DNA of 40,929 nucleotides from Bacteroidales bacterium (lineage in GTDB: Bacteria > Bacteroidota > Bacteroidia > Bacteroidales > Marinilabiliaceae): contig JAKSLE010000022.1 in assembly GCA_024401365.1 (NCBI GenBank), positions 1-40,929 on the forward strand. The letters are read 5' to 3'. This document shows positions 12,294-40,635 of the stretch, piece by piece (the first letter of the stretch is position 1; each line of letters begins with the position of its first letter). A program made the position numbers and the translations under genes. The notes under the pieces are model-generated. The model was not told the origin of the DNA, did not search any database, and saw only the letters and a list, made by a program, of their open reading frames with translations.

Positions 12294-15200
12294 ATGGCTA
12301 ATTACAGTACAGGACTAACCAGTAATGCTAAGATGATGAGAAACAATTATCGCAGAATGCTCTCATTACTCATGGCGATTTGTCTAACAGTATGTGCATT
12401 TGCACAGAACATGACAGTTACTGGTATTGTGACTTCTAAGTCAGACAACATGCCACTTCCAGGTGTGAATGTTGTCGAAGCAGGAACTACTAATGGTACT
12501 ATCACCGATTTTGATGGTAAGTATACATTAGTAGTAAAGCAAGGCTCAACCATTAACTTTACATTTATTGGTTTTGCTGAGCAATCACATCAAGCTGCTC
12601 CAACTATCAATGTAGCGATGGTTGATGAGACAGAGTTGCTTGGTGACGTTGTAGTAGTAGGTTACGGTACACAGCGTAAGGAAGCTGTTACAGGTTCCGT
12701 AGCATCAATGAACGGCGAGTCGATTCGTGAGGTTCCTGGTGGCAACATCACACAAAACCTTCAGGGTCGTATTGCTGGTGTAGAGATGGCGCAGACATCA
12801 TCTAAGCCAGGTGCAGAGATGCAGATCCGTATTCGTGGTACACGTTCATTGAACGCATCCAACGATCCATTGGTAGTATTGGATGGTATACCATTTGCAG
12901 GTAGTCTTGGTGATATCAACCCAAGCTCTATCAAGAGCATTGATATCTTGAAGGATGCCTCTGCAACAGCTATTTACGGTTCTCGTGGTGCTAACGGTGT
13001 TATTATCGTTACAACAAATAAGGGTACAAAGGGACAGAGTGCTAAGCTTACATACAGCGGTTACATTGGTGCAAAGACAGTATTTGCAAAGTTCCCAATG
13101 ATGAACGGCAAGCAGTTTGAGAAGCTTCGTGACTATGCTGGCAAGTATCCAGTAGATGGTGAAGACGAGAAGCGTGGTACAGACACTGACTGGCAGGATG
13201 AGATGTATGAGAATGGTCTTGTAATGAACCATGACGTTTCTGTAACAGGTGGTGGTGAGAAGAACGCATACAGCTTTGGTGCTGCATACTACAAGGAAGA
13301 GGCTGTAATTGCGCTTCAGGAGTACTCACGTATTTCTATGCGTGGATCATTGGATCAGGGTGTTGGTGACTACTTCAAGATTGGTTTCACAACAACAAAC
13401 AACTATACAGTTAAGTATGGTGACGACCTTGGTCTTTACAATGTACTTTCTCCATCTCCAATTGTAAGTCCAAAGAATTCAGACGGTACAAACAAGCGAG
13501 TTTTCCACTCTGCACAGGATGATTCTTGGACATATACAAGAGAGACACTTGAGGCACTTGGCGACAACTACATTGACAAGAAGATTGCTTACGGTACATA
13601 CAACAGTATCTATGGTGAGCTCTCTATTCCAGGCGTTGAAGGTCTTAAGTATCGTGTAAACGTTGGTTTGAATGCACGTTTTACAAATGATGGTCACTAT
13701 ACCGGCGAGGGTGTATTCTCTACAAATGCGCAAGAGCCATCATCTGCATCGCAGTCGAACTCGACAACAACAAACTGGGCAGTTGAGAACCTTATCACAT
13801 TTGACCGTTTGTTCGCAGACAAGCATCAAGTTAACTTCGTAGCAATGTACTCAGCAGAGAAGAGCCACTATCACAGCTCACACATGTCTGCACGTGACGT
13901 TCCTTACGAGGCATTCCAGTTCTACAACATTGGTCGTGCTAACGGTACAATCACAGTAAATCCTGACTATCAGGGTTACAACGAGACAGGTCTTATGTCT
14001 TGGATGGCACGTTTGATGTACTCTTACGACAGCAAGTATATGCTCAGCGTTGCTCTCCGTTCGGATGGTTCTAGCCGTTTGGCTGAGGGTAAGAAGTGGC
14101 ATACATACCCAGCTGTATCAGCAGGTTGGAATATTGCAAATGAGGATTTCTGGGGTGTAGAGCCAGTAAGCGCACTCAAGGTACGTGTAGGTTACGGTGA
14201 GACATCTAACCAGTCTGTAGATCCATACAAGACACTTGGTAGACTTGCGACACGTCCATACAACTTCGGCAGCTCGTACGAGACAGGTTTCTATGTATCG
14301 GAGCTTCCAAACCCAGACCTTGGTTGGGAGTATTCAACTACAATGAACTACGGTCTTGATTTCGGTTTGTTCAACGACCGTTTGACAGGTAGCTTCGAGT
14401 ACTATGTACAGCATACAAAAGACGTACTTCTTTCAGTAGGTCTTCCTTCAACATCGGGTGTAGGCAGCTTCATGGCTAACATTGGTGAGACAGAGAACAA
14501 GGGTTGGGAGTTGAACCTCAACGGTACAATTTTCCAAAACGATGACTGGACAATTGATGCTGGTTTCAACATCTACTCTAACAAGAACAAACTCGTTAAG
14601 CTTGCTTCAGATCAGAAGAAGGATGAGGGTAACGGTTGGTTCGTTGGTCACGCTATCAATGCAATCTACGATTATGAGTATGATGGTCTCTGGAATTCTT
14701 CAGACCCAGACTTCAAGTATCTCGACATCCTCGAGCCAGGTGGTAATGAGGGTATGATCAAGGTTAAGTACAACGTAGAGCGTGATTCAAGCGGCAAGCC
14801 AACACGTGCTATCGGTCCAGATGACCGTCAGATCATCGAGGTAGATCCAAAGGCGCAAGGTGGTTTCAACACACGTATTGCATGGAAGGGTCTTGACCTC
14901 TCGATTATTGGTGCATTCAAGTGTGGTGGCAAGTTGATTTCTACACTTCATGCAGCAGGCGGTTACCTCAACATGTTGACAGGTCGTCGTGGCAACGTAG
15001 ACGTAGACTACTGGACAGAAGAGAACAAGGGTGCTAAGTATCCAAAGCCAGGTGGTATTCAGAGTGGTGATAACCCAAAGTATGGTTCTACACTTGGTTT
15101 GTTTGATGGTTCATACTGCAAGATTCGTACAATCACACTTGGTTACAACCTTGACTCTGCAGCATGGTTCAAGAATGACGTAATCAAGACATGTCGTGCA

Positions 15201-15389
15201 TACTTCACAGTACAGAATCCTTTCGTAATCTCATCTGATTACCACAAGGAGACAGGACTTGATCCAGAGACAAACTCATACGGTAATGAGAACCAGGCAG
15301 TTGCAAGCTACAACCGCAGAATCCTCGTTGTTGGTACTAACACACCACAAACACGTTCGTTCATCTTTGGTCTTAACATGACATTCTAA
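12294..15389 (+). CDS. SusC/RagA family TonB-linked outer membrane receptor
   Basis: A 1031-residue outer-membrane importer that works with the SusD lipoprotein encoded next. After the signal peptide (ending CAFAQ) come a carboxypeptidase-regulatory-like domain (VTGIVTSKSDNMPLPGVNV), a TonB-box-like stretch (GDVVVVGYGTQ), the plug (IRIRGTRSLNASNDPLVVLDG to YGSRGANGVIIVTT) and a long beta barrel ending in FIFGLNMTF with a C-terminal Phe. No STN domain is seen, so signalling through an anti-sigma factor is not expected. The ATG at 12294 puts 13 residues before MMRNNYRR; a start at 12333 is equally possible. No glycoside hydrolase or regulator gene is adjacent, so the substrate is unknown. Confidence 0.94.
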   Translation: MANYSTGLTSNAKMMRNNYRRMLSLLMAICLTVCAFAQNMTVTGIVTSKSDNMPLPGVNVVEAGTTNGTITDFDGKYTLVVKQGSTINFTFIGFAEQSHQAAPTINVAMVDETELLGDVVVVGYGTQRKEAVTGSVASMNGESIREVPGGNITQNLQGRIAGVEMAQTSSKPGAEMQIRIRGTRSLNASNDPLVVLDGIPFAGSLGDINPSSIKSIDILKDASATAIYGSRGANGVIIVTTNKGTKGQSAKLTYSGYIGAKTVFAKFPMMNGKQFEKLRDYAGKYPVDGEDEKRGTDTDWQDEMYENGLVMNHDVSVTGGGEKNAYSFGAAYYKEEAVIALQEYSRISMRGSLDQGVGDYFKIGFTTTNNYTVKYGDDLGLYNVLSPSPIVSPKNSDGTNKRVFHSAQDDSWTYTRETLEALGDNYIDKKIAYGTYNSIYGELSIPGVEGLKYRVNVGLNARFTNDGHYTGEGVFSTNAQEPSSASQSNSTTTNWAVENLITFDRLFADKHQVNFVAMYSAEKSHYHSSHMSARDVPYEAFQFYNIGRANGTITVNPDYQGYNETGLMSWMARLMYSYDSKYMLSVALRSDGSSRLAEGKKWHTYPAVSAGWNIANEDFWGVEPVSALKVRVGYGETSNQSVDPYKTLGRLATRPYNFGSSYETGFYVSELPNPDLGWEYSTTMNYGLDFGLFNDRLTGSFEYYVQHTKDVLLSVGLPSTSGVGSFMANIGETENKGWELNLNGTIFQNDDWTIDAGFNIYSNKNKLVKLASDQKKDEGNGWFVGHAINAIYDYEYDGLWNSSDPDFKYLDILEPGGNEGMIKVKYNVERDSSGKPTRAIGPDDRQIIEVDPKAQGGFNTRIAWKGLDLSIIGAFKCGGKLISTLHAAGGYLNMLTGRRGNVDVDYWTEENKGAKYPKPGGIQSGDNPKYGSTLGLFDGSYCKIRTITLGYNLDSAAWFKNDVIKTCRAYFTVQNPFVISSDYHKETGLDPETNSYGNENQAVASYNRRILVVGTNTPQTRSFIFGLNMTF

Positions 15390-15408
15390 TTTGATAAAGC
15401 AGTAAATT

Positions 15409-17304
15409 ATGAAACTCAGTAAATATTTTCTTGCTGCTGGTGCTTTGGCTTTGTTGGCAACATCATGTGATGATGTGCTAGAAGAGACACCTCGTGGCAT
15501 TTACACACCAGAGTACTTTAAGACAGAGAAGGGTGTTATGGGTGGTCTTACATCACAGTACACACACCTTCGTCAGATCTACAGTACATATTTCTATGCA
15601 TGGCTTGAGTGTGGTACAGACGAGTACACATACGGACAGTCGGCAGACAACAACTTCAAGGATGTTGACTTCACAGGTGTAGGTCAGTACAACTCAACAT
15701 CGAGCCGTTCGGACAACATGTGGGGATCGGCCTTCACAAACATCAATACAGCCAATGGTATTATTGAGAATGGTGAGGCAGCAAACCTTGATGCATCCCT
15801 CATAGCAGAAGCACGTTTCTTCCGTGCATACGACTACTTCCAGTTGGTACAGATTTTCGGTGGTGTACCACTTGACCTAGGTTCAGGCGAGTTGGCATTC
15901 AACACATCAAAGTCGCGTACATCAGTACGTAACACAGTACCAGAGGTATATGCAGCTATTTTTGCTGATCTTGAGAAGGCGGTAGCAGACCTTCCAGAGA
16001 AGCCACGTATGACAGGTACAGTAACAAAGACGACAGCACGTCTTATACTTGCCAAGGCATACTTGACATTTGGCTGGTGGCTTGAGAATCCAAAGGGTAT
16101 AGCAACATATCCTGCATGTGACCGCAAGGCGAAAGACGGCAAGAGCGCAGCACAATACTTCCAGATGGCATACGACATGGCACTTGACGGCATCAACAAC
16201 CCAGGTGTTTATGGTTTGAATGACACATATTACGAGACACACCTTGGTTCGAATGACCGCAATAAGGAGTGGCTTCTCTATGCAGACCACACAGAGGCAG
16301 ATGAGTTCTATGATGGTCAGAACCACGGTTATGCATCAGGTGGTGCATTTGACCAGATTTTCGTATGGTTCTCAACATCGAACTACTGTAACATCAAGAC
16401 GGCTGACGGAGTAGCAATTGGTCGTGAGGCAGCACAGGAGTATGGTCGTCCTTGGACACGTATGGCTCCTCCAGTAGATGTATTCACAAAGACATTTGCA
16501 GACAAGGAGAACGACTCACGTTATGATGGTACATTTGTAGGTGTATACCATGCAAACTGGCATCGTAATGGTGACTCTGCAAAAGAGCATGAAGGTGCAA
16601 ACGGCATGATGATACAGCAAGACGGTGCTGTACTCAGCTTCATTCCACAAGTTGAAGGTATTGACTATTCGAAGAATGGTGCTGGTGTAGGTGCTGGTAT
16701 TCTTCCAGGTCGTGCAGACTATGTAATAGGCTATGAGGATATCAACCGTATTCTTTACCCAGGTCTTTGGAAGCTTGGTACATATCGTACAGACAACAAT
16801 GGTGGTATGGGTTCGCCAAACGGTGGTATCACACGTCCTACATTGTTGGCTAAGTTCTCTGAGTTCTACCTTGTAGCAGCAGAGGCAGCAGTTAAGGGTG
16901 CTACAGGAGCTAAGTCGGCTCGTGACCTTGTAAATGTACTTCGTGCACGTGCAGGTAAGTGGGTATACTCAAATGCTGAGCATGTTGCCAAGGAAGAAGA
17001 TCACAGTGCAGAGATGGTAGCAGCTACACCTGAGACAATTGACATTGAGTACATTTTGGCAGAGCGTTCACGTGAGTTCTTTGGTGAAGGTCTTCGTCGT
17101 CTTGACTTGATCCGTACACAGATGTACAAGGAGATTGCTGGTACATATCGCATTGCTGGTAATGGCTATGGTGATCACGTAGCTGAGACATTCACACGAG
17201 ACTTCAAGGATCACAACTGGTTGGCTCCAATTCCACAAGGTCAGCTTGACGCTATGGAGATGACAGCTGACGAGAAGAAGGCTTATCAGAATCCAGGATA
17301 TTAA
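15409..17304 (+). CDS. SusD/RagB family nutrient-binding lipoprotein
   Basis: A 631-residue surface lipoprotein that caps the SusC barrel. The signal peptide ends in the lipobox LATSC with lipidated C20, followed by acidic DDVLEE, which fits the acidic surface-export signal known from Bacteroidota lipoproteins. SusD features include FFRAYDYFQLVQIFGGVPL near residue 140, TPR-type helices, and the C-terminal region ILAERSREFFGEGLRRLDLIR. It starts 19 bases after susC stops and is followed by a strong terminator, so susC-susD form a two-gene operon. The ligand is not predictable. Confidence 0.94.
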   Translation: MKLSKYFLAAGALALLATSCDDVLEETPRGIYTPEYFKTEKGVMGGLTSQYTHLRQIYSTYFYAWLECGTDEYTYGQSADNNFKDVDFTGVGQYNSTSSRSDNMWGSAFTNINTANGIIENGEAANLDASLIAEARFFRAYDYFQLVQIFGGVPLDLGSGELAFNTSKSRTSVRNTVPEVYAAIFADLEKAVADLPEKPRMTGTVTKTTARLILAKAYLTFGWWLENPKGIATYPACDRKAKDGKSAAQYFQMAYDMALDGINNPGVYGLNDTYYETHLGSNDRNKEWLLYADHTEADEFYDGQNHGYASGGAFDQIFVWFSTSNYCNIKTADGVAIGREAAQEYGRPWTRMAPPVDVFTKTFADKENDSRYDGTFVGVYHANWHRNGDSAKEHEGANGMMIQQDGAVLSFIPQVEGIDYSKNGAGVGAGILPGRADYVIGYEDINRILYPGLWKLGTYRTDNNGGMGSPNGGITRPTLLAKFSEFYLVAAEAAVKGATGAKSARDLVNVLRARAGKWVYSNAEHVAKEEDHSAEMVAATPETIDIEYILAERSREFFGEGLRRLDLIRTQMYKEIAGTYRIAGNGYGDHVAETFTRDFKDHNWLAPIPQGQLDAMEMTADEKKAYQNPGY

Positions 17305-18663: not shown

Positions 18664-19785
18664 ATGAAACGAATCGTTCTATTGTTGCTCATGACATTCA
18701 TAGTCAATGTCGGAGCTTGGGCATCTGACTTTGAATTCGGTGGCATAAGCTACAATGTTACTTCATCATCAGATTTGACGGTGGAAGTAACCTACATTGA
18801 TAACAAATATAGTGGAGATGTTGTTATCCCATCTTCTGTAACGTATGAAGGAACGACCTATAGTGTGACGCAGATAGGTGATGTTGCATTTTATGGATGC
18901 AGCGGTTTGACATCGGTGGTGATACCTTCGAGTGTGACGAGGATAGGTAATGATGCATTTGAAGAATGCAGCGGTTTGACATCTGTAGAGATACCTTCGA
19001 GTGTGACGGAGATAGGTTTTGCGGCATTTAGGGATTGTAGCGTTTTGACTAGCGTTACTATTTCAGAAGGTGTGACTTTTATAGATAGTTATGCATTTCA
19101 AGGTTGCTATAACCTGACGAGCGTAACGATTCCATCGACAGTTACTGATATTGGTGTAGATGCCTTCCCAAATCCATACGACAATGAAGAGTGTAAACTC
19201 AGCACTATAACGTTGTTGACAAAGACTCACAGTGTAGCCTTGAAGATACTTGGATATTACGGGACGACGGCTGATCAATACCAATATTCAGGTTTCCACT
19301 CAAAAGGTTATGCGGCTGTTTATGTTGCTGATGGACTCTTGCCATTCTATGAGTGGTTCTGGGGCGGATATTACAACTTCATTGAGATAGGTGATGTGCC
19401 AAACGTGATAAATGGCGAAGGTGGCATCGCAAGCATCGTGAAGGTGTACAACAACAAAGTTGATATCAACGTTGACCTCGAAGAGGGTTACAGTGTCAGC
19501 GAGATTAAGGTGAATGGCAAAGTTGTTTACACAGCATCGGCGAGCAACAAATCATTGTCGGTAGACGTTTTTGTAATCAAGAACAGCGAAACATCGTTCA
19601 CCCTTGTAGGTGTGACTGCTGATGACACCATCGAGGTGGCATATAACAAGTCGACACCAACAGGTGTTGGTGTGATAGAGATGCAGAGAGAGGTGAAAGG
19701 CGTATATGACATATATGGCCGCAAGCTCACTGAGCCTCAGCGAGGCATCAATATTATTGATGGTAAGAAGGTGATAGTGAAGTGA
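18664..19785 (+). CDS. BspA-type leucine-rich repeat surface protein
   Basis: A 373-residue exported protein. A signal peptide (about 1-21, ending GAWA) precedes a short beta segment and about four BspA/Treponema-type repeats of 23 residues with the pattern LTSVxIPSSVTxIGxxAFxxCSG (about 55-170); the first repeats are visible as a 69-base DNA repeat at 18870-19020. A beta-sandwich-like middle follows. The C-terminus, VYDIYGRKLTEPQRGINIIDGKKVIVK-like, resembles the short terminal domain common on Bacteroidales exported proteins and loosely a type IX sorting domain; no more than that can be said. Family roles include adhesion to host or other cells. Confidence 0.85.
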   Translation: MKRIVLLLLMTFIVNVGAWASDFEFGGISYNVTSSSDLTVEVTYIDNKYSGDVVIPSSVTYEGTTYSVTQIGDVAFYGCSGLTSVVIPSSVTRIGNDAFEECSGLTSVEIPSSVTEIGFAAFRDCSVLTSVTISEGVTFIDSYAFQGCYNLTSVTIPSTVTDIGVDAFPNPYDNEECKLSTITLLTKTHSVALKILGYYGTTADQYQYSGFHSKGYAAVYVADGLLPFYEWFWGGYYNFIEIGDVPNVINGEGGIASIVKVYNNKVDINVDLEEGYSVSEIKVNGKVVYTASASNKSLSVDVFVIKNSETSFTLVGVTADDTIEVAYNKSTPTGVGVIEMQREVKGVYDIYGRKLTEPQRGINIIDGKKVIVK

Positions 19786-20911: not shown

Positions 20912-22396
20912 ATGATCAATCAACCAGTAGTGAAGCTTGGTATCGTTGGTGTAAGCCGCGACTGCTTCCCAATTGAGCTCACAAAGAGCCGTCTTGCTGC
21001 TCTTATGGCAGAGGTAAAGAAGGCAGGCCTCCCAGAGGTATACGACTGTCCAGTAGTAATTGAGAACGACGTAGATACATACAAGGCTCTTGATTGGGCT
21101 AAGGCTAATGGTATCAACGCAGTATGTATGTTCCTCGGCAACTTTGGTCCAGAGGGTCCTACAACACTCTTTGTACAGAAGTTCGGTGGTCCTGCAATGG
21201 TAATTGCTGCTAAGGAAGAGGGCAAGGCTAACCTCGCAAATGACCGTGGTGATGCACTTTGTGGTGTACTCAACTTCTCATATAGCGTAGGTCTCCGTCG
21301 CCTCAAGGTATATATCCCAGAGTATCCTAACGTAACTCCAGCAGAGGCTGTTAAGGAGCTCGCTGACTTCCGTAACATCGCTCGCGTTGTAATCGGTGTT
21401 CGCAACCTCAAGGTTATCGGCTTCGGTCCACGTCCTTGGGACTTCCTCGCTTGTAACGCACCTATCCAGCCAATGTACGATCTCGGTATCGAGGTACAGG
21501 AGAACTCTGAGCTTGACCTCAAGAAGGCATTTGATGAGATTCTCGCTAAGCCAGGCAAGGCTGCAGAGGTTGCTGCTGTAGCTAAGGATATGGAGAAGGA
21601 GCTTGGTAAGGGTAACAAGTATCCTGAGATCATCAACAAGATGGCTCAGCTTGAGGTAACACTCATGGATTGGTATGAGAACCAGAAGGGTGGCTCTAAG
21701 TATGCAGTATTTGCAAACAAGTGCTGGCCAGCATGGCAGCCAATCTTCGAGTTCGAGCCTTGCTACGTTAACTCACGTCTCACAGGTCGTGGTATTCCAG
21801 TAGCATGTGAGGTTGACCTCTATGGTGCTCTCTCTGAGTACATGGCAGAGTGCGCTACAGAGAAGCCAGCTACACTTCTCGATATCAACAACTCAGTTCC
21901 TGCTGACGTTATCCCTGCTGGTGCAAACCTCGCAGGTGCAGACCTCAAGGACCTTTACATGGGCTTCCACTGTGGTAACACATGCTCACAGTGCATGAAG
22001 AGCTGCGAGATTAAGTATCAGCTCATCCAGGCTCGTCTCATGAGCCCAGATATCACAAAGGGTACACTCGAGGGTCAGATTGCTCCAGGCAAGTCGACAA
22101 TGTTCCGTATCCAGTCTAACTCTGACAGCAAGCTCGTTTCTTACATTGCTCAGGGTGAGTTCCTTGACGTTGATCCATGCTCTTTCGGTGGTATCGGTAT
22201 CCACGCTATCCCAGGTTTCGCTCGTTTCTACCGTCACGTACTCGTAGGCAAGCGTTTCCCACACCACGGTGCATACGCATTCGAGCATTGTGGCAAGGTT
22301 CTCTTCGAGGCTCTCAAGATGCTCGGCGTAGAGGACATCAACACTCCACTCCCTGCAGGTCAGTTGTACCCAGGTGAGAACCCATTTGCTCTCTAA
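20912..22396 (+). CDS. L-fucose isomerase family protein
   Basis: A 494-residue cytosolic enzyme of the L-fucose/L-arabinose isomerase superfamily (aldose-ketose isomerases with a divalent metal). Segments that fit the family's active-site ligands are CEVDLYGALSEYM near 299, LLDINN near 325, FHCGNTCSQC near 352 and FEHCGKVLFEAL near 457. It is shorter than E. coli FucI (about 590), as are many COG2407-type relatives, so the true sugar is uncertain. Codons ending in C, especially CTC for Leu, are far more frequent than in neighbours, suggesting high expression. No fucose kinase or aldolase lies nearby. It is monocistronic, with its own terminator. Confidence 0.8.
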   Translation: MINQPVVKLGIVGVSRDCFPIELTKSRLAALMAEVKKAGLPEVYDCPVVIENDVDTYKALDWAKANGINAVCMFLGNFGPEGPTTLFVQKFGGPAMVIAAKEEGKANLANDRGDALCGVLNFSYSVGLRRLKVYIPEYPNVTPAEAVKELADFRNIARVVIGVRNLKVIGFGPRPWDFLACNAPIQPMYDLGIEVQENSELDLKKAFDEILAKPGKAAEVAAVAKDMEKELGKGNKYPEIINKMAQLEVTLMDWYENQKGGSKYAVFANKCWPAWQPIFEFEPCYVNSRLTGRGIPVACEVDLYGALSEYMAECATEKPATLLDINNSVPADVIPAGANLAGADLKDLYMGFHCGNTCSQCMKSCEIKYQLIQARLMSPDITKGTLEGQIAPGKSTMFRIQSNSDSKLVSYIAQGEFLDVDPCSFGGIGIHAIPGFARFYRHVLVGKRFPHHGAYAFEHCGKVLFEALKMLGVEDINTPLPAGQLYPGENPFAL

Positions 22397-22550: not shown

Positions 22551-23240
22551 ATGAACAAGATTTTTCTTTCTGCCATAATGTTGTTTGTTGGCATTTCGAG
22601 TGTTGGTGCTCAGAATGCTGAGGGGGTACCCTTTAATGGTGTAATAAGTGATTTTGTGGGCAATGCAGCCAAGAGGGCTAAGGTATCTGTAAATGACTAT
22701 TATTATACCATGACAGATCGTCAAGGCAGGTTTGGCTTGACGGATGTAAAAGATACAGATACACTGAAGATTAAGTACCAGAAGTCGGTCTATTACATTC
22801 CAGTAGCAGGCAGAAAGAGTATCAGGATAAAGTTGGCAGACCAGTTGGACAAATCTGCCATGTTTGAAGCTGCAGAAGATCAAGAGCTTGTAGATTATGG
22901 TTATGGTTTTGTGAAGCGAAGAGAATCGCTCAACATCAGCAATGGTATACCAGGAGAAGTTTTGCGCAGAAGGAACACTACCAATATACTTGATGCTCTT
23001 TCGGGGATGGTACCGGGGTTGAATTTACAAAACAAGAGTGGTAAGACAAAAGCCCTGATCAGGGGAGTGGGCACGATAGGCAAGACAGATCCGCTATTTA
23101 TTGTTGATGGGGTAGAAGTAGAGTCGCTAGACTACATTTCGGTATATGATGTAGAGAGGGTAGAGGTTTTGAAGGACGGCTCCATGTATGGAGTAAGGGG
23201 AGCCAATGGAGTGATTATTGTGCGTACGATAGGCAGGTAA
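22551..23240 (+). CDS. Plug-domain-only SusC-like protein
   Basis: A 229-residue exported protein with a signal peptide (about 1-21, ending VGAQ), a carboxypeptidase-regulatory-like beta domain (about 25-105; FNGVISDFVGNAAKRAKVSV) and a TonB-receptor plug (about 130-229) with ALIRGVGTIGKTDPLFIVDG and SMYGVRGANGVIIVRT. In a true SusC receptor this would be followed by a barrel of about 700 residues; here a stop codon ends the protein straight after the plug. The sequence is intact, with its own promoter box, and downstream DNA belongs to porQ in opposite orientation, so no barrel remnant is left. Function is unknown; it may be a periplasmic soluble protein. Confidence 0.8.
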   Translation: MNKIFLSAIMLFVGISSVGAQNAEGVPFNGVISDFVGNAAKRAKVSVNDYYYTMTDRQGRFGLTDVKDTDTLKIKYQKSVYYIPVAGRKSIRIKLADQLDKSAMFEAAEDQELVDYGYGFVKRRESLNISNGIPGEVLRRRNTTNILDALSGMVPGLNLQNKSGKTKALIRGVGTIGKTDPLFIVDGVEVESLDYISVYDVERVEVLKDGSMYGVRGANGVIIVRTIGR

Positions 23241-31488: not shown

Positions 31489-32721
31489 TTATTCATTTGT
31501 GGCGGCAAAATTCTCCTCTAAGAAACCGATAAGTTCGTTTGCCATTTTCTCCTGCTGAGCCATACTAGGGTGGTAGTCGGCACCGAAACCGAGGTCGCCT
31601 GTCTGAGGAGACATATCGAATCGGTACAAGAGCTTATCCTGAGGATTCTGAGTAAGAATTCTATCGAGACAATATTTTACGTCGATCAAAGCCTGACCGC
31701 CGAGCATTGAGCCAGACAAGAAAATGATTGCGCTACTTGGGTAGGTTTCGCGCAATGTCTGATAGAAAGACAAGTATGCCTCGCCCAACTTATCGATATC
31801 GTAGTTATCCAAACTTGTATCGTTTGTACCCAAGTTTACGAATATGAAGTTAGGCTGATAAGACCTGTGGTCCCATGTGTAAGACTCGTTGTCGAACAAT
31901 GTGCGGTGGAACTGCTGAGTCATATTTATGCGACTTCCCTCGCGCTTATCGCCATAATTGCGGTATACGCCGATGCCCGAGCGAGAGATAGAATGCCACT
32001 GAGCGTTGAAATAGCGGGCAGTAATAGCTGCGTAGCTATAATAGTGGTTCTCGGTCAGGTAATCGAACCCATGTTTAGGGTCGTCATCCTCTACGCCATA
32101 TCCGCAAGTGATAGAGTTGCCGATAAACAAGAACTTGAGGCCGTTCAATATAGGCTTTTCGAGGAGGGCTTTCTCTCCGCAGAGGCGGAATCCGTAGAAA
32201 GTAGGATTATGGGCATAGCCCTCGGTAGCCAGCATGATACGTATAGAGTGAGGTCCAGCTGAGAGAGAATCGACATACATTACATCTGTATCCTCGCCGA
32301 ACTCCCATCGTTCAGGTTCGCCCTCGTCCAAAGAAACCATGAAAGAACCAGAGCCTGCTCTCATTTTGACGCCAATATAGTTACCCTTGAAATTGGCGAT
32401 GATAGATGAGCCAGGGTAGTTGAACCTTACAGAGCCATCCTCGTCGTAGACGAAGCGGCCCATATAAGCTATTCTTGGGTTAGAAGCTTTGTAGAAGAGA
32501 CTATAGTCTGGGTATTGGATAATCTCGGAGCTTCCGTAGAGGGTTTCATCGTATTCTTCGTATTCAACTTCATCATCATTATATTCATCGCTTTTGAAGA
32601 ATTCGGACACTTTATCCCAGAAGCCAGTAGATTCTGTCTGGTCGTCATCCTTGGACATTATACCTATAGTACCATAGATAATCAGGCCTATGGCGATTAT
32701 GAATAAAGGTTTTCCGCTCAT
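31489..32721 (-). CDS. SGNH esterase, CE2-like, membrane anchored
   Basis: A 410-residue predicted exported carbohydrate esterase. An N-terminal membrane helix (about 4-22), an acidic linker (about 24-65) and a jelly-roll domain (about 85-190) lead to an SGNH hydrolase domain: FIGNSITCGYG with nucleophile S203, NLGTND for the oxyanion hole, and GADYHPS with the Asp-His pair. This two-domain order is that of CE2 acetyl-xylan esterases, which remove acetyl groups from plant polysaccharides. It lies 32 bases after gyrB on the same strand, an unexpected place for a polysaccharide-active enzyme. Confidence 0.85.
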   Translation of the reverse strand: MSGKPLFIIAIGLIIYGTIGIMSKDDDQTESTGFWDKVSEFFKSDEYNDDEVEYEEYDETLYGSSEIIQYPDYSLFYKASNPRIAYMGRFVYDEDGSVRFNYPGSSIIANFKGNYIGVKMRAGSGSFMVSLDEGEPERWEFGEDTDVMYVDSLSAGPHSIRIMLATEGYAHNPTFYGFRLCGEKALLEKPILNGLKFLFIGNSITCGYGVEDDDPKHGFDYLTENHYYSYAAITARYFNAQWHSISRSGIGVYRNYGDKREGSRINMTQQFHRTLFDNESYTWDHRSYQPNFIFVNLGTNDTSLDNYDIDKLGEAYLSFYQTLRETYPSSAIIFLSGSMLGGQALIDVKYCLDRILTQNPQDKLLYRFDMSPQTGDLGFGADYHPSMAQQEKMANELIGFLEENFAATNE

Positions 32722-35602: not shown

Positions 35603-35633
35603 GTTGTATTTTATGTTGAAGTAACTACCTTTG
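35603..35633 (+). promoter_or_regulatory. Promoter of the cyclophilin gene
   Basis: GTTG (35603-35606), 19 bases, TACCTTTG (35626-35633): one mismatch to the consensus. The box covers the TTG at 35631, so translation cannot start there. Confidence 0.7.
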
Positions 35634-35663
35634 CGATTGAAACTAAAATTACGGCAAGATCTT

Positions 35664-36401
35664 ATGTCAATAGTTAAGATAGAGACATCGATGGGTGACA
35701 TTGTTGTGCGCCTTTACGATGAGACACCTCTCCACAAGGAGAATTTCCTCAAGTTGGTCAAGGAAGGGTATTATGACGGCACGATATTTCACAGAGTGAT
35801 TAAGGGGTTCATGGTACAAGGAGGAGATCCTGACACCAAGAATGCCAAGAAAGGTGCCAACTATGGTTCAGGTGGACCAGACTACACTATAGAAGCAGAG
35901 ATAAAGTCGGGCTTATTCCACAAGAGGGGTGCGTTGGCGGCTGCGCGTCTTGGCGACGAATTTAATCCAGAGAGGCGTTCGAGCGGATCGCAATTCTACA
36001 TTGTATGGGGAGAAGTCTACAATGAAGGCAAGCTCAACCAATATATCAAGCAGATGGCGATGGTAGCCGAGCAGAATATCCTTGACAGGCTTGCGCAAGA
36101 ACACAGGTCGGAGATAATGGAGTTGAGGAAGAACAGAGACAGGGCAGGGTTATCGGCATTGCAAGACAAGCTTATGGCGGAAGCTAAGGCAGAAGCCAAG
36201 AGCAAGAAAGTAGGCATGAGTGACGAGCAGAAGCAAGCCTATACGACAGTAGGCGGTACCCCATTCCTTGACGGAGAGTACACAGTATTTGGAGAAGTAG
36301 TTGAGGGATTAGAGATAGTAGAGAAGATACAAGCGGTAAAGACCTTGACAGGGGACAGACCTGTAGAAGATGTGGTACTAGTCTCGGCGAAATTGGCGTA
36401 A
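35664..36401 (+). CDS. Cyclophilin-type peptidylprolyl isomerase
   Basis: A 245-residue prolyl isomerase, without a visible signal peptide, so probably cytosolic. Catalytic cyclophilin motifs are FHRVIKGFMVQGGDP (about 44-58) and SGSQFYIVWG (about 110-119), ending with TVFGEVVEGLEIVEKI. Between the last two lies a charged helical insertion of about 85 residues (rich in Lys, Glu and Ala), much larger than in E. coli PpiB, as in many Bacteroidota cyclophilins. The open frame extends to 35631, but the promoter box there and the start MSIVKIETSMGD favour the ATG at 35664. Confidence 0.92.
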   Translation: MSIVKIETSMGDIVVRLYDETPLHKENFLKLVKEGYYDGTIFHRVIKGFMVQGGDPDTKNAKKGANYGSGGPDYTIEAEIKSGLFHKRGALAAARLGDEFNPERRSSGSQFYIVWGEVYNEGKLNQYIKQMAMVAEQNILDRLAQEHRSEIMELRKNRDRAGLSALQDKLMAEAKAEAKSKKVGMSDEQKQAYTTVGGTPFLDGEYTVFGEVVEGLEIVEKIQAVKTLTGDRPVEDVVLVSAKLA

Positions 36402-36871: not shown

Positions 36872-38869
36872 ATGAAAAAGACGTTATTGAGTATTGCCTT
36901 TATGGCGATAGGCGTAGTAGCCATGGCTCAATTCAGGGGTATGCCGAAGCCAAAGTCGACGGTATACTACACGAAGGAGATTACTCCAGAGTCGTTGGTA
37001 AGGATGTACAGTGTGCTTGGCATTGACGTTAGTGGTCATGTAGCGGTAAAGATAAGCACTGGAGAGCGTGGCAACAATCATTATTTGAAGCCAGAACTTA
37101 TCAAGGACCTTGTGAACAAGGTAAACGGTGTGATTGTAGAGTGCAATACAGCATACGGAGGATCGCGACAAGACGTGAATGAGCACTGGAAGACAATTAA
37201 GGAGCACGGATTCACGAAAGAGTTTGCGGTAGACATTATGGACCAGTACGGTGAGATGCGCATTCCTGTATCCGACAAGTCGAACATCAAGTATGACTGT
37301 GTAGGAGACCATCTTGCAAACTATGACTATATGATCAACCTTGCGCACTTCAAGGGACACGTTATGGGTGGCTTTGGTGGTGTATTGAAGAATGCATCAA
37401 TTGGAGTAGCAAGTACATCAGGTAAGGCATACATTCACTCAGCAGGTCAGACAGAAGATGCGGCAGAATGCTGGAAGTTGAAGACAGAGCAAGACAGATT
37501 CCTTGAGTCGATGGCTGCGGCTGCGCAGGCTGTGCACAACTACATGGACGGCAAGGTACTCTACATCAATGTGATGAACAATATGAGCATTGACTGTGAC
37601 TGTGATGGGCATCCACACGCTCCAGAGCTCAAGGATATGGGTATTGTAGCATCATTGGACCCAGTAGCATGTGATCAGGCATGTCTTGATATGGTATTCA
37701 ACCACAAGGCTACAAAGGGAGACAATGAGAAGCCACTTATTGAGCGTATCAATAAGCAGCACGGTACATACATTACAGAATATGCTGAGAAGATTGGTCT
37801 TGGCCAGCGTGAGTACAAGCTTGTGGACGTAGACGAGATTGTAAGCGGTCTTACAGATGCATACAAGGGTTACTTTGACGTAGGTGTAGCACTTAACATG
37901 TTCAACCTCAGTACAGAGCGTCAGGTAGAATTGATCAAAGCCAACTACAGCTCGATTACAGCAGAGAACTGTATGAAGCCAGCATCACTTCAGCCAAAAG
38001 AGGGAGAGTGGAACTGGGCAGATGCTGACAAGCTTGCGAACTTCTGTCGTGAGAACAAGATCAAGATGAGAGGTCACTGTTTGTGCTGGCACTCGCAATT
38101 TGCGGACTGGATGTTTACAGGTCCTGACGGCAAGCCAGCATCGAAAGAGCTCTTCTACGAGCGTTTGGAGAAGCACATCAAGACAGTTGTAAACCGTTAT
38201 AAGGACATTGTATATGCTTGGGACGTTGTAAACGAGGCTATGACAGATGATGAGAAGGCAGAAGATCCATATCGTCAGTCGCGTCATTACAAGCTCTGTG
38301 GCGATGAGTTTATTGCCAAGGCATTCCAGTGGGCACATGAGGCAGATCCAAAGGCTATATTGTTCTACAACGATTACAACGAGTGTACTCCACACAAGCG
38401 TGATAAGATCTACAACATGGTAAAGAAGATGCAAGATGCTGGTGTACCTATCACAGGTATTGGTATGCAGGCACACTACAACATCTACGAGCCATCGGAG
38501 GCAGACTTCAAGGCTGCTATTGAGAAATATTCGGAGCTTGTTAAGCACATTCACATTACAGAGCTTGACGTTCGTGTTAACCGAGAGATGGGTGGTCAGC
38601 TTCAGTTCAGCCGTACAGGTGAGACAGTTACACCTATGGTTAAGATGCGTCAGCAGAGACAGTACGATATGTTGTTCCGTGTCTTGAGAGAGCACAAGGA
38701 CGTTATTGACGTTGTTACATTCTGGAACTTGAGTGACTTAGACACATGGTTGGGTACAGCCAACTATCCACTTCCATTCGACAAGAATTTGTTGCCAAAG
38801 GATTTCTACTACTCATTGAGAGATTGGGAGAAGCAGCCTAAGGAGACATTCCCATGGATGGGATTCTAA
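36872..38869 (+). CDS. Secreted DUF362-like domain fused to GH10 endo-xylanase
   Basis: A 665-residue exported protein in one uninterrupted frame. A signal peptide (about 1-19, ending VAMAQ) is followed by a DUF362-like domain (about 40-325) with VAVKISTGERGNNHYLKPEL, AHFKGHVMGGFGGVLKNASIG, the cysteine motif DCDCDGHPHAPE and LDPVACDQACLDMVF. From about 335 to 660 it is a GH10 xylanase: acid/base E455 in WDVVNEAM, nucleophile E564 in HITELDV, plus MRGHCLCWHSQ and FWNLSDLDTWL. GH10 enzymes cut beta-1,4-xylan. DUF362 proteins are uncharacterised, often Fe-S associated. Monocistronic, with a terminator after it. The fusion is the odd point. Confidence 0.88.
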   Translation: MKKTLLSIAFMAIGVVAMAQFRGMPKPKSTVYYTKEITPESLVRMYSVLGIDVSGHVAVKISTGERGNNHYLKPELIKDLVNKVNGVIVECNTAYGGSRQDVNEHWKTIKEHGFTKEFAVDIMDQYGEMRIPVSDKSNIKYDCVGDHLANYDYMINLAHFKGHVMGGFGGVLKNASIGVASTSGKAYIHSAGQTEDAAECWKLKTEQDRFLESMAAAAQAVHNYMDGKVLYINVMNNMSIDCDCDGHPHAPELKDMGIVASLDPVACDQACLDMVFNHKATKGDNEKPLIERINKQHGTYITEYAEKIGLGQREYKLVDVDEIVSGLTDAYKGYFDVGVALNMFNLSTERQVELIKANYSSITAENCMKPASLQPKEGEWNWADADKLANFCRENKIKMRGHCLCWHSQFADWMFTGPDGKPASKELFYERLEKHIKTVVNRYKDIVYAWDVVNEAMTDDEKAEDPYRQSRHYKLCGDEFIAKAFQWAHEADPKAILFYNDYNECTPHKRDKIYNMVKKMQDAGVPITGIGMQAHYNIYEPSEADFKAAIEKYSELVKHIHITELDVRVNREMGGQLQFSRTGETVTPMVKMRQQRQYDMLFRVLREHKDVIDVVTFWNLSDLDTWLGTANYPLPFDKNLLPKDFYYSLRDWEKQPKETFPWMGF

Positions 38870-38952: not shown

Positions 38953-38994
38953 GAAAAAAAATTGCAATATTGCACGAAAAAATTGTTCCTGGAT

Positions 38995-40635
38995 ATGGAA
39001 GAGTATATACACGACGATCTGGATTATTCATTTACAAAGCGCGGGGCTATAGTGAGGCTGATATCTGCTGCCGTCGTGTTTGTTGTCGCAATAATAGTAG
39101 AGTTCTATGTGGCGTTAAATCCCACTTATGCAGACTCCGTTATATCTTACAATCCTCTTTCTACACTTCAGCAGACAATTTTTTATTTTGTAATAGCTAT
39201 ATCGTTGGAAGTGGTCATCAGCCAGACATTGCTTCTGATGAAAGTTGCCTTATGGACATGTTTAGTTGATATAATAGCCTCTGTTTTTTCGCTTTTTGTT
39301 GCCTTCTTTATAGTAGATGGAGTTGTTGTGCTATCTCGCTGTTTTCAGCCAAAGGATTATACTATGTCGTTAGGCTATGTAGTCGGCAAGCATAGCGAAT
39401 GGGGAGAACCTTTGTCGTACGAAATATCCGTTAATACAGACTATACCTCGGCATTCCGGCTCAAGGTTAGGCATAGTGCCTATCGGGATATTTCGCTTGG
39501 GGACACTGTGCTGGTTCGTATTACGACCAGTGGCGATACCTGTGTTCTCAACTATAGGCCCTCGCACGAAGCCATTGAAAAATTTCGGTTGCCGCAGACG
39601 TATGTGGACGGGAAGTTGCGCAAGGTGTACAATGACGATGAATATACAGAAGAGCAGAGGCGCGTTCTTCTGAAATGGTCGTACCTTGTTGTTGGCAATG
39701 TATATGATATAATAGAAGAAGCGCCTAATAGGATAATCAAGGTTGGTGTTGCCGATAGCCTGGCTGCAAGGCAATATTTGAATGGCAGTATGCCTGAATA
39801 TGCCAAGATAATCAGTCAGATACGTGTCGGAAGTAAGGTTATTTTGCGCGTAGCAGAATCTTGCCCTCTTGTCAATGAAGTCTTTGATTGGTTCCCTGAT
39901 ACAGCCTCCATTTGCAGGTATGCAGAACCACAGGTTTTTGATCCGAAAGAAAAGCCTGCCAAGACTATTTCTCCAAGCAGGGCGATGGAAGTAGAAGATC
40001 TATACAATTCGTTTTACTGTATAGGTCGCGTATATGGTAAGTATAGAGACTTGGGTGCAGGCATGCACTTTGAGATTGGGGTTTCAGACAGCCTGTTGGT
40101 AGATCGTATATTCAAGTTGCGGACAAATAACGATATGCATATATGTAACTATGTATTTTGTGGAGATATGGTAATACTTCAAGTGGCATATAGAGATTAT
40201 CGCTTATTCCGTGTTGTAGATTGGTTTCCAGATAGTGCAACCATTCAGAAATACAAGAATCCTGTAAGTGTTCAGTTGCCATATAATCAGAACGTGGATA
40301 CTGGAGATGTACAGTGGGGTGGTGTAGACGAAAAAGCACTAAGCAAACACTATATAGCTAAGATTTATAGGCGTTCGCATAAGCAGACAGGTTATATTTG
40401 GGCGCTAAATCCTAATTCGTATGATGTTGGGGTGGTAAAAGAAGCATGTAGCCATGGACTTTTATCTACGGTCGAACGAGAATTGTTGAGGAATAGAGGG
40501 TTTAAGGTAGGGTCGCCGGTATTGCTTCAAGTTTCAGACTCGTTGCCGTCATGTAATAGAATTCTCAAGTGGAATCCGACGCCAGAAGAAGTAGAAAAAT
40601 ACAAGAAACCGGTTCTTATAGTAAATTATGAGTGA
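38995..40635 (+). CDS. Membrane protein with four copies of an unrecognised repeat
   Basis: A 546-residue protein, not recognised. Three hydrophobic helices (about 17-40, 61-82, 86-113) anchor it, with an acidic N-terminus outside them. The remaining 430 residues hold four diverged units of about 85 residues (about 126-205, 229-316, 340-427, 451-546). Each opens like IGRVYG, has a central Gly-Asp/Ser turn followed by VLLQV-type strands, and closes with a motif of the form W-x-P, then IxKYxxP. The frame is open to a TTG at 38962, but the ATG at 38995 is more likely. The predicted folds are beta-rich. The gene stands alone between a terminator and the tRNA-Asp promoter. Confidence 0.75.
   Translation: MEEYIHDDLDYSFTKRGAIVRLISAAVVFVVAIIVEFYVALNPTYADSVISYNPLSTLQQTIFYFVIAISLEVVISQTLLLMKVALWTCLVDIIASVFSLFVAFFIVDGVVVLSRCFQPKDYTMSLGYVVGKHSEWGEPLSYEISVNTDYTSAFRLKVRHSAYRDISLGDTVLVRITTSGDTCVLNYRPSHEAIEKFRLPQTYVDGKLRKVYNDDEYTEEQRRVLLKWSYLVVGNVYDIIEEAPNRIIKVGVADSLAARQYLNGSMPEYAKIISQIRVGSKVILRVAESCPLVNEVFDWFPDTASICRYAEPQVFDPKEKPAKTISPSRAMEVEDLYNSFYCIGRVYGKYRDLGAGMHFEIGVSDSLLVDRIFKLRTNNDMHICNYVFCGDMVILQVAYRDYRLFRVVDWFPDSATIQKYKNPVSVQLPYNQNVDTGDVQWGGVDEKALSKHYIAKIYRRSHKQTGYIWALNPNSYDVGVVKEACSHGLLSTVERELLRNRGFKVGSPVLLQVSDSLPSCNRILKWNPTPEEVEKYKKPVLIVNYE

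Follow-up and report, generated by a model that had tools for sequence, protein, structure and literature searches.

Architecture of the fusion gene

The window analysed here, that is, the whole stretch of 40,929 nucleotides of contig JAKSLE010000022.1 (a Bacteroidales bacterium of the Marinilabiliaceae, assembly GCA_024401365.1), carries on its forward strand, at positions 36872–38869, a gene in which a DUF362 domain is fused to a glycoside hydrolase family 10 (GH10) domain; all features of this gene given below lie on the same strand. The gene is a single open reading frame (ORF) of 665 amino acids from ATG to stop, with no internal stops. A Pfam scan of the protein places DUF362 (PF04015) at residues 57–273 (E 5e-44; 151 bits against a cut-off of 24, over profile positions 1–200 of 200, its full length) and GH10 (PF00331) at residues 327–650 (E 3.3e-95; 319 bits against a cut-off of 22.1, profile positions 2–309 of 311), both matches being far above chance and making the protein a member of both families. 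The original prediction, that one open frame joins the two domains and that both catalytic glutamates are present, is borne out by the ORF, by the Pfam scan and by all five fusion proteins found (see below), and the fusion is a genuine chimeric enzyme.

The protein begins with MKKTLLSIAFMAIGVVAMAQ (residues 1–19, 36872–36928), which by eye resembles a Sec signal peptide cleaved between AMA and Q, in keeping with the signal peptide predicted ahead of the hydrolase; the N-termini are similar across all five fusion proteins, and the protein is probably exported. The DUF362 domain, predicted to have the LarA fold, extends over residues 22–322 (36935–37837), with the Pfam core at 37040–37690, and contains the predicted cysteine site, a DCDCD motif at residues 241–245 (37592–37606) comprising Cys242 and Cys244. 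Homology to stand-alone DUF362 proteins stops at around residues 321–322 and GH10 starts at 326–327, which leaves almost no linker at the junction (residues 323–326, 37838–37849); a frame break was looked for near residues 325–335 and none was found. The GH10 catalytic domain occupies residues 327–650 (37850–38821), with Glu455 (38234–38236, motif WDVVNE) as predicted acid/base and Glu564 (38561–38563, motif ITELD) as predicted nucleophile, residues which we take from the family motifs to be the catalytic pair and which are kept in 5/5 fusions. In a PDB search the best 60 of 145 matches, mostly named xylanases, are all restricted to the part from about residue 314 onwards; no solved DUF362 structure was retrieved by sequence, the weak matches to the N-terminal half looking like chance. 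Assignment of this half to a carbohydrate-binding module (CBM) family was also looked for, and none of the four matches that Pfam gives at E up to 1 is of that kind.

Recurrence of the fusion

The N-terminal half is matched in 9 of 71 genomes of the same family. Among the 15 genomes of the genus, five carry the fusion in open frames of 665–668 residues (G000, the window's own genome, and G065, G066, G060 and G067), two have a DUF362 with no GH10 attached (G059 and G064) and eight have no DUF362 match. The DUF362 parts of the four other fusions are 71–90% identical to that of the window, and their gyrB genes 90–97%, as compared with at most 75% for nine genomes (G056 has no gyrB match); in the gyrB tree the five fusion genomes form one clade with support 100/100. 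Each has one DUF362 match of this kind, the fused copy, and the fusion lies close to gyrB in G000, G065 and G066, while in G060 it lies on the same contig about 49 kb off.

Outside this clade the architecture was not encountered in the sets searched. Nine of 395 sampled Bacteroidia genomes match the DUF362 alignment, and only the window's own frame exceeds 400 amino acids. Among the best 80 of at least 578 related loci in GTDB there is no fusion-length frame, the longest having 466 amino acids, a set which may omit genomes very near that of the window, so that 0/80 is not an independent test beyond the near kin of the clade. The DNA around 78 of these stand-alone loci revealed no GH10 (L075 and L087 were left out of the flank analysis), none of 83 matching plasmid records covers 80% of the fusion protein, and the available portions of the literature on DUF362 (PF04015) contain no report of a DUF362-GH10 fusion that we could find.

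Origin of the two halves

The closest relatives of the GH10 half are found in six genomes of the genus (G055, G058, G059, G062, G063 and G064), where they are 58–68% identical to it in the stretch that matches best and have frames of 733–769 amino acids; the two that were scanned with Pfam both have GH10 followed by an esterase (PF00756). In agreement, residues 326–655 of the fusion match positions 1–340 of 694 of the xylanase/feruloyl esterase profile NF041944, that is, its first half only, and with 545.8 bits stay below the whole-protein cut-off of 1200 bits. The names Xyn10D-Fae1A and CE1 are presumably those of the NF041944 enzyme, and no literature match for 'Xyn10D-Fae1A' was found. In comparison with this enzyme the GH10 half is alike, but the fusion has no esterase half and has DUF362 ahead of GH10. 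In the GH10 tree, which was rooted on three GH10 paralogues, two of them with long branches, the five fusion GH10s are monophyletic (99/100) and nested among the GH10-esterase enzymes, and the node uniting them with G063, G058 and G055 has support 95/97. A distant GH10 paralogue in G065 (contig C23, 71657–72670; L113) has one in-frame TAA in the matched stretch.

A search with the esterase half finds it joined to GH10 in a single frame in the six genomes and free-standing in 5/5 fusion genomes, there as frames of 367–396 amino acids with 69–72% identity to the query which, by eye, begin with a signal-like peptide just ahead of the domain boundary. The five free esterases make up one side of a branch supported at 100/99 in the esterase tree, which is unrooted, includes G062 and by itself is silent on the ancestral state; an earlier version with a distant outgroup was unresolved. 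Four genomes (G056, G057, G061 and G068) have neither the GH10-esterase nor the fusion. Because of the placement in the GH10 tree, together with an esterase that is fused in six genomes and free in five, the GH10-esterase is most likely ancestral, with DUF362 having taken the place of the esterase in one clade. The splitting of a GH10-feruloyl esterase would go back to the ancestor shared by this clade, in which the GH10 half became attached to a stand-alone DUF362 protein that was secreted, the esterase half surviving as a gene of its own. A small group of gut-type bacteria thus appears to have taken apart a common fibre-digesting enzyme made of two parts and to have linked the part that cuts xylan to an exported DUF362.

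As to the source of the DUF362 half, a tree built from 87 DUF362 rows unites those of the five fusions in one clade (SH-aLRT 100) within a set of 16 rows (99), the rest of which are stand-alone forms of gut and rumen Bacteroidales; the G059 copy falls with Paludibacteraceae forms and the G064 copy with Palleniella. The simplest reading is that the domain was probably taken up laterally from another gut Bacteroidales.

Stand-alone DUF362 relatives

The stand-alone DUF362 proteins of gut Bacteroidales are 56–74% identical to the fusion over the domain and share its near-invariant residues and its export-signal-like N-terminus, but none among the best 80 of at least 578 has a frame long enough to hold GH10 as well. 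Using a crude regular-expression test, we classed the N-termini of 82 stand-alones as SPI-like (38), lipobox-like (38), Tat-like (2) or unclear (4; in one of these, L054, a lipobox is seen by eye after a later Met). An export-type N-terminus, as judged by these motifs, is therefore the rule in this DUF362 subfamily, and the premise of the original prediction that DUF362 is generally intracellular does not hold for it, 78 of the 82 having such N-termini. That premise is also countered by the DUF362-CBM9-dockerin proteins mentioned in the accessible part of PMC5742341, which likewise place DUF362 in a carbohydrate-active architecture, although the partner there, compared by description only, is a binding module with a dockerin and not a glycoside hydrolase.

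Some stand-alone forms have other attachments or neighbours. In G059 (L011, 1417–2799) a lipobox-like DUF362 is followed in one frame by DUF1893/TM1506 according to Pfam, and the gene comes directly after one that by eye is TonB-receptor-like; L031, L038, L040 and L043, whose frames are similar to it in length, may share this architecture, which Pfam confirms in L011. Genes recurring in the flanks (L019–L098) encode aldo/keto reductase, flavodoxin, FMN reductase, carboxymuconolactone decarboxylase-cupin and TonB receptor proteins, one representative of each neighbour cluster having been scanned with Pfam. At least one aldo/keto reductase, flavodoxin, FMN/flavin reductase or carboxymuconolactone decarboxylase gene is found in 34/78 loci, a count with no background rate and of little weight.

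Resemblance of the DUF362 half to LarA

DUF362 and the LarA superfamily (DUF2088), which comprises nickel-pincer racemases such as lactate racemase (LarA), belong to the same Pfam clan, CL0471, as stated in the section of PMC11770544 at hand, and from this a LarA-type fold is to be expected. Indeed, the AlphaFold model of the DUF362 half (36935–37846; mean pLDDT 93.7) gives LarA-type fold matches spanning about residues 33–291. In a profile alignment three residues of the fusion align without gaps with the LarA motif H-x9-K-x15-H: His163 (37358–37360) with its first histidine, the catalytic His174 of LarA1, Lys173 (37388–37390) with Lys184, and His189 (37436–37438) with His200. Lys184 and His200 are the cofactor lysine and a nickel ligand of LarA1 in the excerpt of PMC9283937 that we used. 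The LarA-type set comprises 30 loci from 40 genomes with a match, and the profile was built from 27 of them, leaving out L165, L175 and L178; the DUF362 profile was built without G067. The motif H-x9-K-x15-H is found in 29 of the 30 loci, as is a D.TR motif, which according to the papers should hold the arginine of the phosphate of the nickel-pincer nucleotide (NPN), R75 of LarA1. Two of the loci left out (L165 and L178) carry both motifs and the third (L175) neither, although its Lar_N match is over the cut-off (108.7 bits); L175 may be related to LarA without depending on NPN. Lar_N (PF09861) has no match in the window's genome, nor is it among the Pfam matches of the fusion protein at E up to 1.

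The DUF362 half and the LarA superfamily are thus alike in fold and in the register of H-x9-K-x15-H, but the former differs in having an additional Cys-x-Cys, an export-type signal in this subfamily, a shorter domain, no D.TR by eye and hosts in which LarC was searched and not found. The LarA-fold model together with the histidine and lysine residues speaks for a catalytic pocket and against a carbohydrate-binding module. These residues are highly conserved: at 80 alignment positions conservation among the 82 stand-alones reaches 97% or more, no stand-alone departs at more than 2 of the 80, and the fusions of G000, G065 and G066 keep 80/80, that of G060 79 and that of G067 65. The position of His163 is histidine, and both Cys242 and Cys244 are kept, in 82/82 stand-alones.

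LarC (PF01969) is the nickel-inserting enzyme of NPN synthesis. It was found in none of the 15 genus genomes (completeness 74–99%), as against 6/14 control genomes, and in none of 50 genomes carrying a stand-alone DUF362 (those of 50 of the 80 loci); many of these genomes are incomplete, but incompleteness is unlikely to account for the negative result in all of them. LarA exceeds its cut-off in 39 of 395 genomes sampled across the phylum and in 0/295 Bacteroidia, where there are 2 sub-threshold matches. The pocket residues are thus kept in genomes that, as far as can be judged from LarC (LarE and LarB were not searched), seem to have no NPN pathway.

Function of the fusion and alternative explanations

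Enzymes of family GH10 cut xylan as retaining endo-1,4-beta-xylanases, and this is the activity predicted for the GH10 half. The DUF362 half may be a second enzyme that transfers a proton or hydride, its substrate, guessed from the partner, being a small acid (a hydroxy acid or a uronic acid, for instance a xylan side-chain product) and its cofactor or metal one not made via the LarB-LarE-LarC route; the role in metal binding or redox suggested in the original prediction is possible. There is little doubt about the architecture, its recurrence, the exchange of partners, the predicted fold, the conserved residues and the failure to find LarC. For the explanation as a whole, a chimera arisen by exchange of partners and endowed with a second catalytic domain, we judge the balance to be somewhat favourable, while the active-enzyme chemistry of the DUF362 half is put forward tentatively, as rather doubtful. 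The wider proposal, that exported DUF362 proteins would be extracytoplasmic enzymes reusing the LarA pocket (a lysine and two histidines) with another metal or organic cofactor, and that fusion to GH10 marks one of them as having a xylan degradation product, such as a glucuronic or aldonic acid, for its substrate, is more speculative and on the unlikely side.

A number of observations weigh against the main explanation. D.TR has no evident counterpart in DUF362, where by eye there is STGE; at the sequence level the LarA profile match is statistically weak (hhalign probability 1–5%, pairwise E 0.008–0.042); the Foldseek TM-scores are 0.41–0.49 over the query, with rmsd 6.7–14.7; and no obvious xylan locus is seen in the window, 25 proteins of which were scanned with Pfam. 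In addition, the G067 fusion, which lies on a 3.1-kb contig and may be misbinned, is without 15 of the 80 near-invariant residues, including Y95, R99, H105, K161, H163, K173, H189 and C242, so that a fusion can stay open without the putative site. Such a joint loss would be expected if these residues form one functional site.

The main rivals are a lack of coupling between the domains and a non-catalytic binding role. That the fusion is an accident of rearrangement, the halves working alone or DUF362 being a passenger in the course of loss, would account for the decayed site of G067 on its long DUF362 branch (0.41 against 0.015–0.15 for the other fusions), for the former partner, the esterase, now having a gene of its own, and for a GH10 half far more conserved than DUF362; between G000 and G066 the proportion of nonsynonymous changes (pN) is 0.006 against 0.098, only pN being used since pairwise dN/dS is mostly saturated at synonymous sites. 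The fusion is nevertheless kept across a clade with gyrB identity down to 90%, the pocket residues persist in 4/5, and the sole DUF362 of this kind in each genome is the fused one, for which reasons we consider this explanation unlikely. Quite improbable is that the DUF362 half is a non-catalytic, CBM-like module that serves the xylanase for binding or positioning: the DUF362-CBM9-dockerin proteins in the part of PMC5742341 cited above provide a precedent, and an open DUF362 without its putative site in G067 would be compatible with binding or a scaffold function, but the model resembles LarA, the 50 fold matches listed include no carbohydrate-binding module, and pocket residues near-invariant in 4/5 fusions and 82 stand-alones are typical of catalysis or metal binding. 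A carbohydrate-binding module proper was rejected, with no CBM family match in Pfam and a LarA-like model.

Far less probable is an outright LarA-like NPN-dependent racemase or epimerase living on NPN scavenged from other microbes. Fold and register agree with LarA, with the lysine, the nickel histidine and the catalytic histidine all in place; LarA-type enzymes with a single catalytic histidine exist, going by the portion of PMC12611868 available; and the TonB receptor gene adjacent in 12/78 stand-alone loci could be an uptake route. LarC was nevertheless found in none of the genus and stand-alone genomes searched, and with a Sec-type signal the protein would leave the cell in the unfolded state, too early for the cofactor to be loaded; as a leading reading it was rejected on the LarC result and on LarA being over the cut-off in 0/295 Bacteroidia (LarE and LarB were not searched). 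As for a chimeric assembly or a frame error, to which a draft genome in 76 contigs might be prone, it can practically be dismissed, being refuted by recurrence: the junction is likewise uninterrupted in four further assemblies, with DUF362 identities of 71–90%, and the esterase half is separate in 5/5 fusion genomes.

The fusion gains its interest from the fact that Pfam describes DUF362 as a domain of unknown function: the fusion to a xylan-cutting half is a natural clue to its role, and the presence of DUF362 on a xylanase, where an esterase stood before, suggests a field of substrates. With G067 as a natural relative whose putative site is lost, the LarA fold and a cofactor pathway that was not found, a direct test becomes feasible of what a LarA pocket does outside the cell without the nickel-pincer cofactor.

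Genomic context in the window

The fusion gene lies between a cyclophilin gene (35631–36401) and one for which Pfam gives no match over the cut-off (38962–40635). The nearest possible link to xylan is a CE2-type esterase gene (31489–32721), which adjoins gyrB and whose relative occupies the corresponding position in G065 and G066. Further upstream, an ORF of 229 amino acids (22551–23240) has a TonB-receptor plug domain only, with no barrel, and is perhaps a truncated receptor. A SusC/SusD-type pair is located at 12294–17304, and downstream of it are a BspA-type leucine-rich-repeat gene (18664–19785) and a gene with an L-fucose isomerase C-domain (20912–22396).
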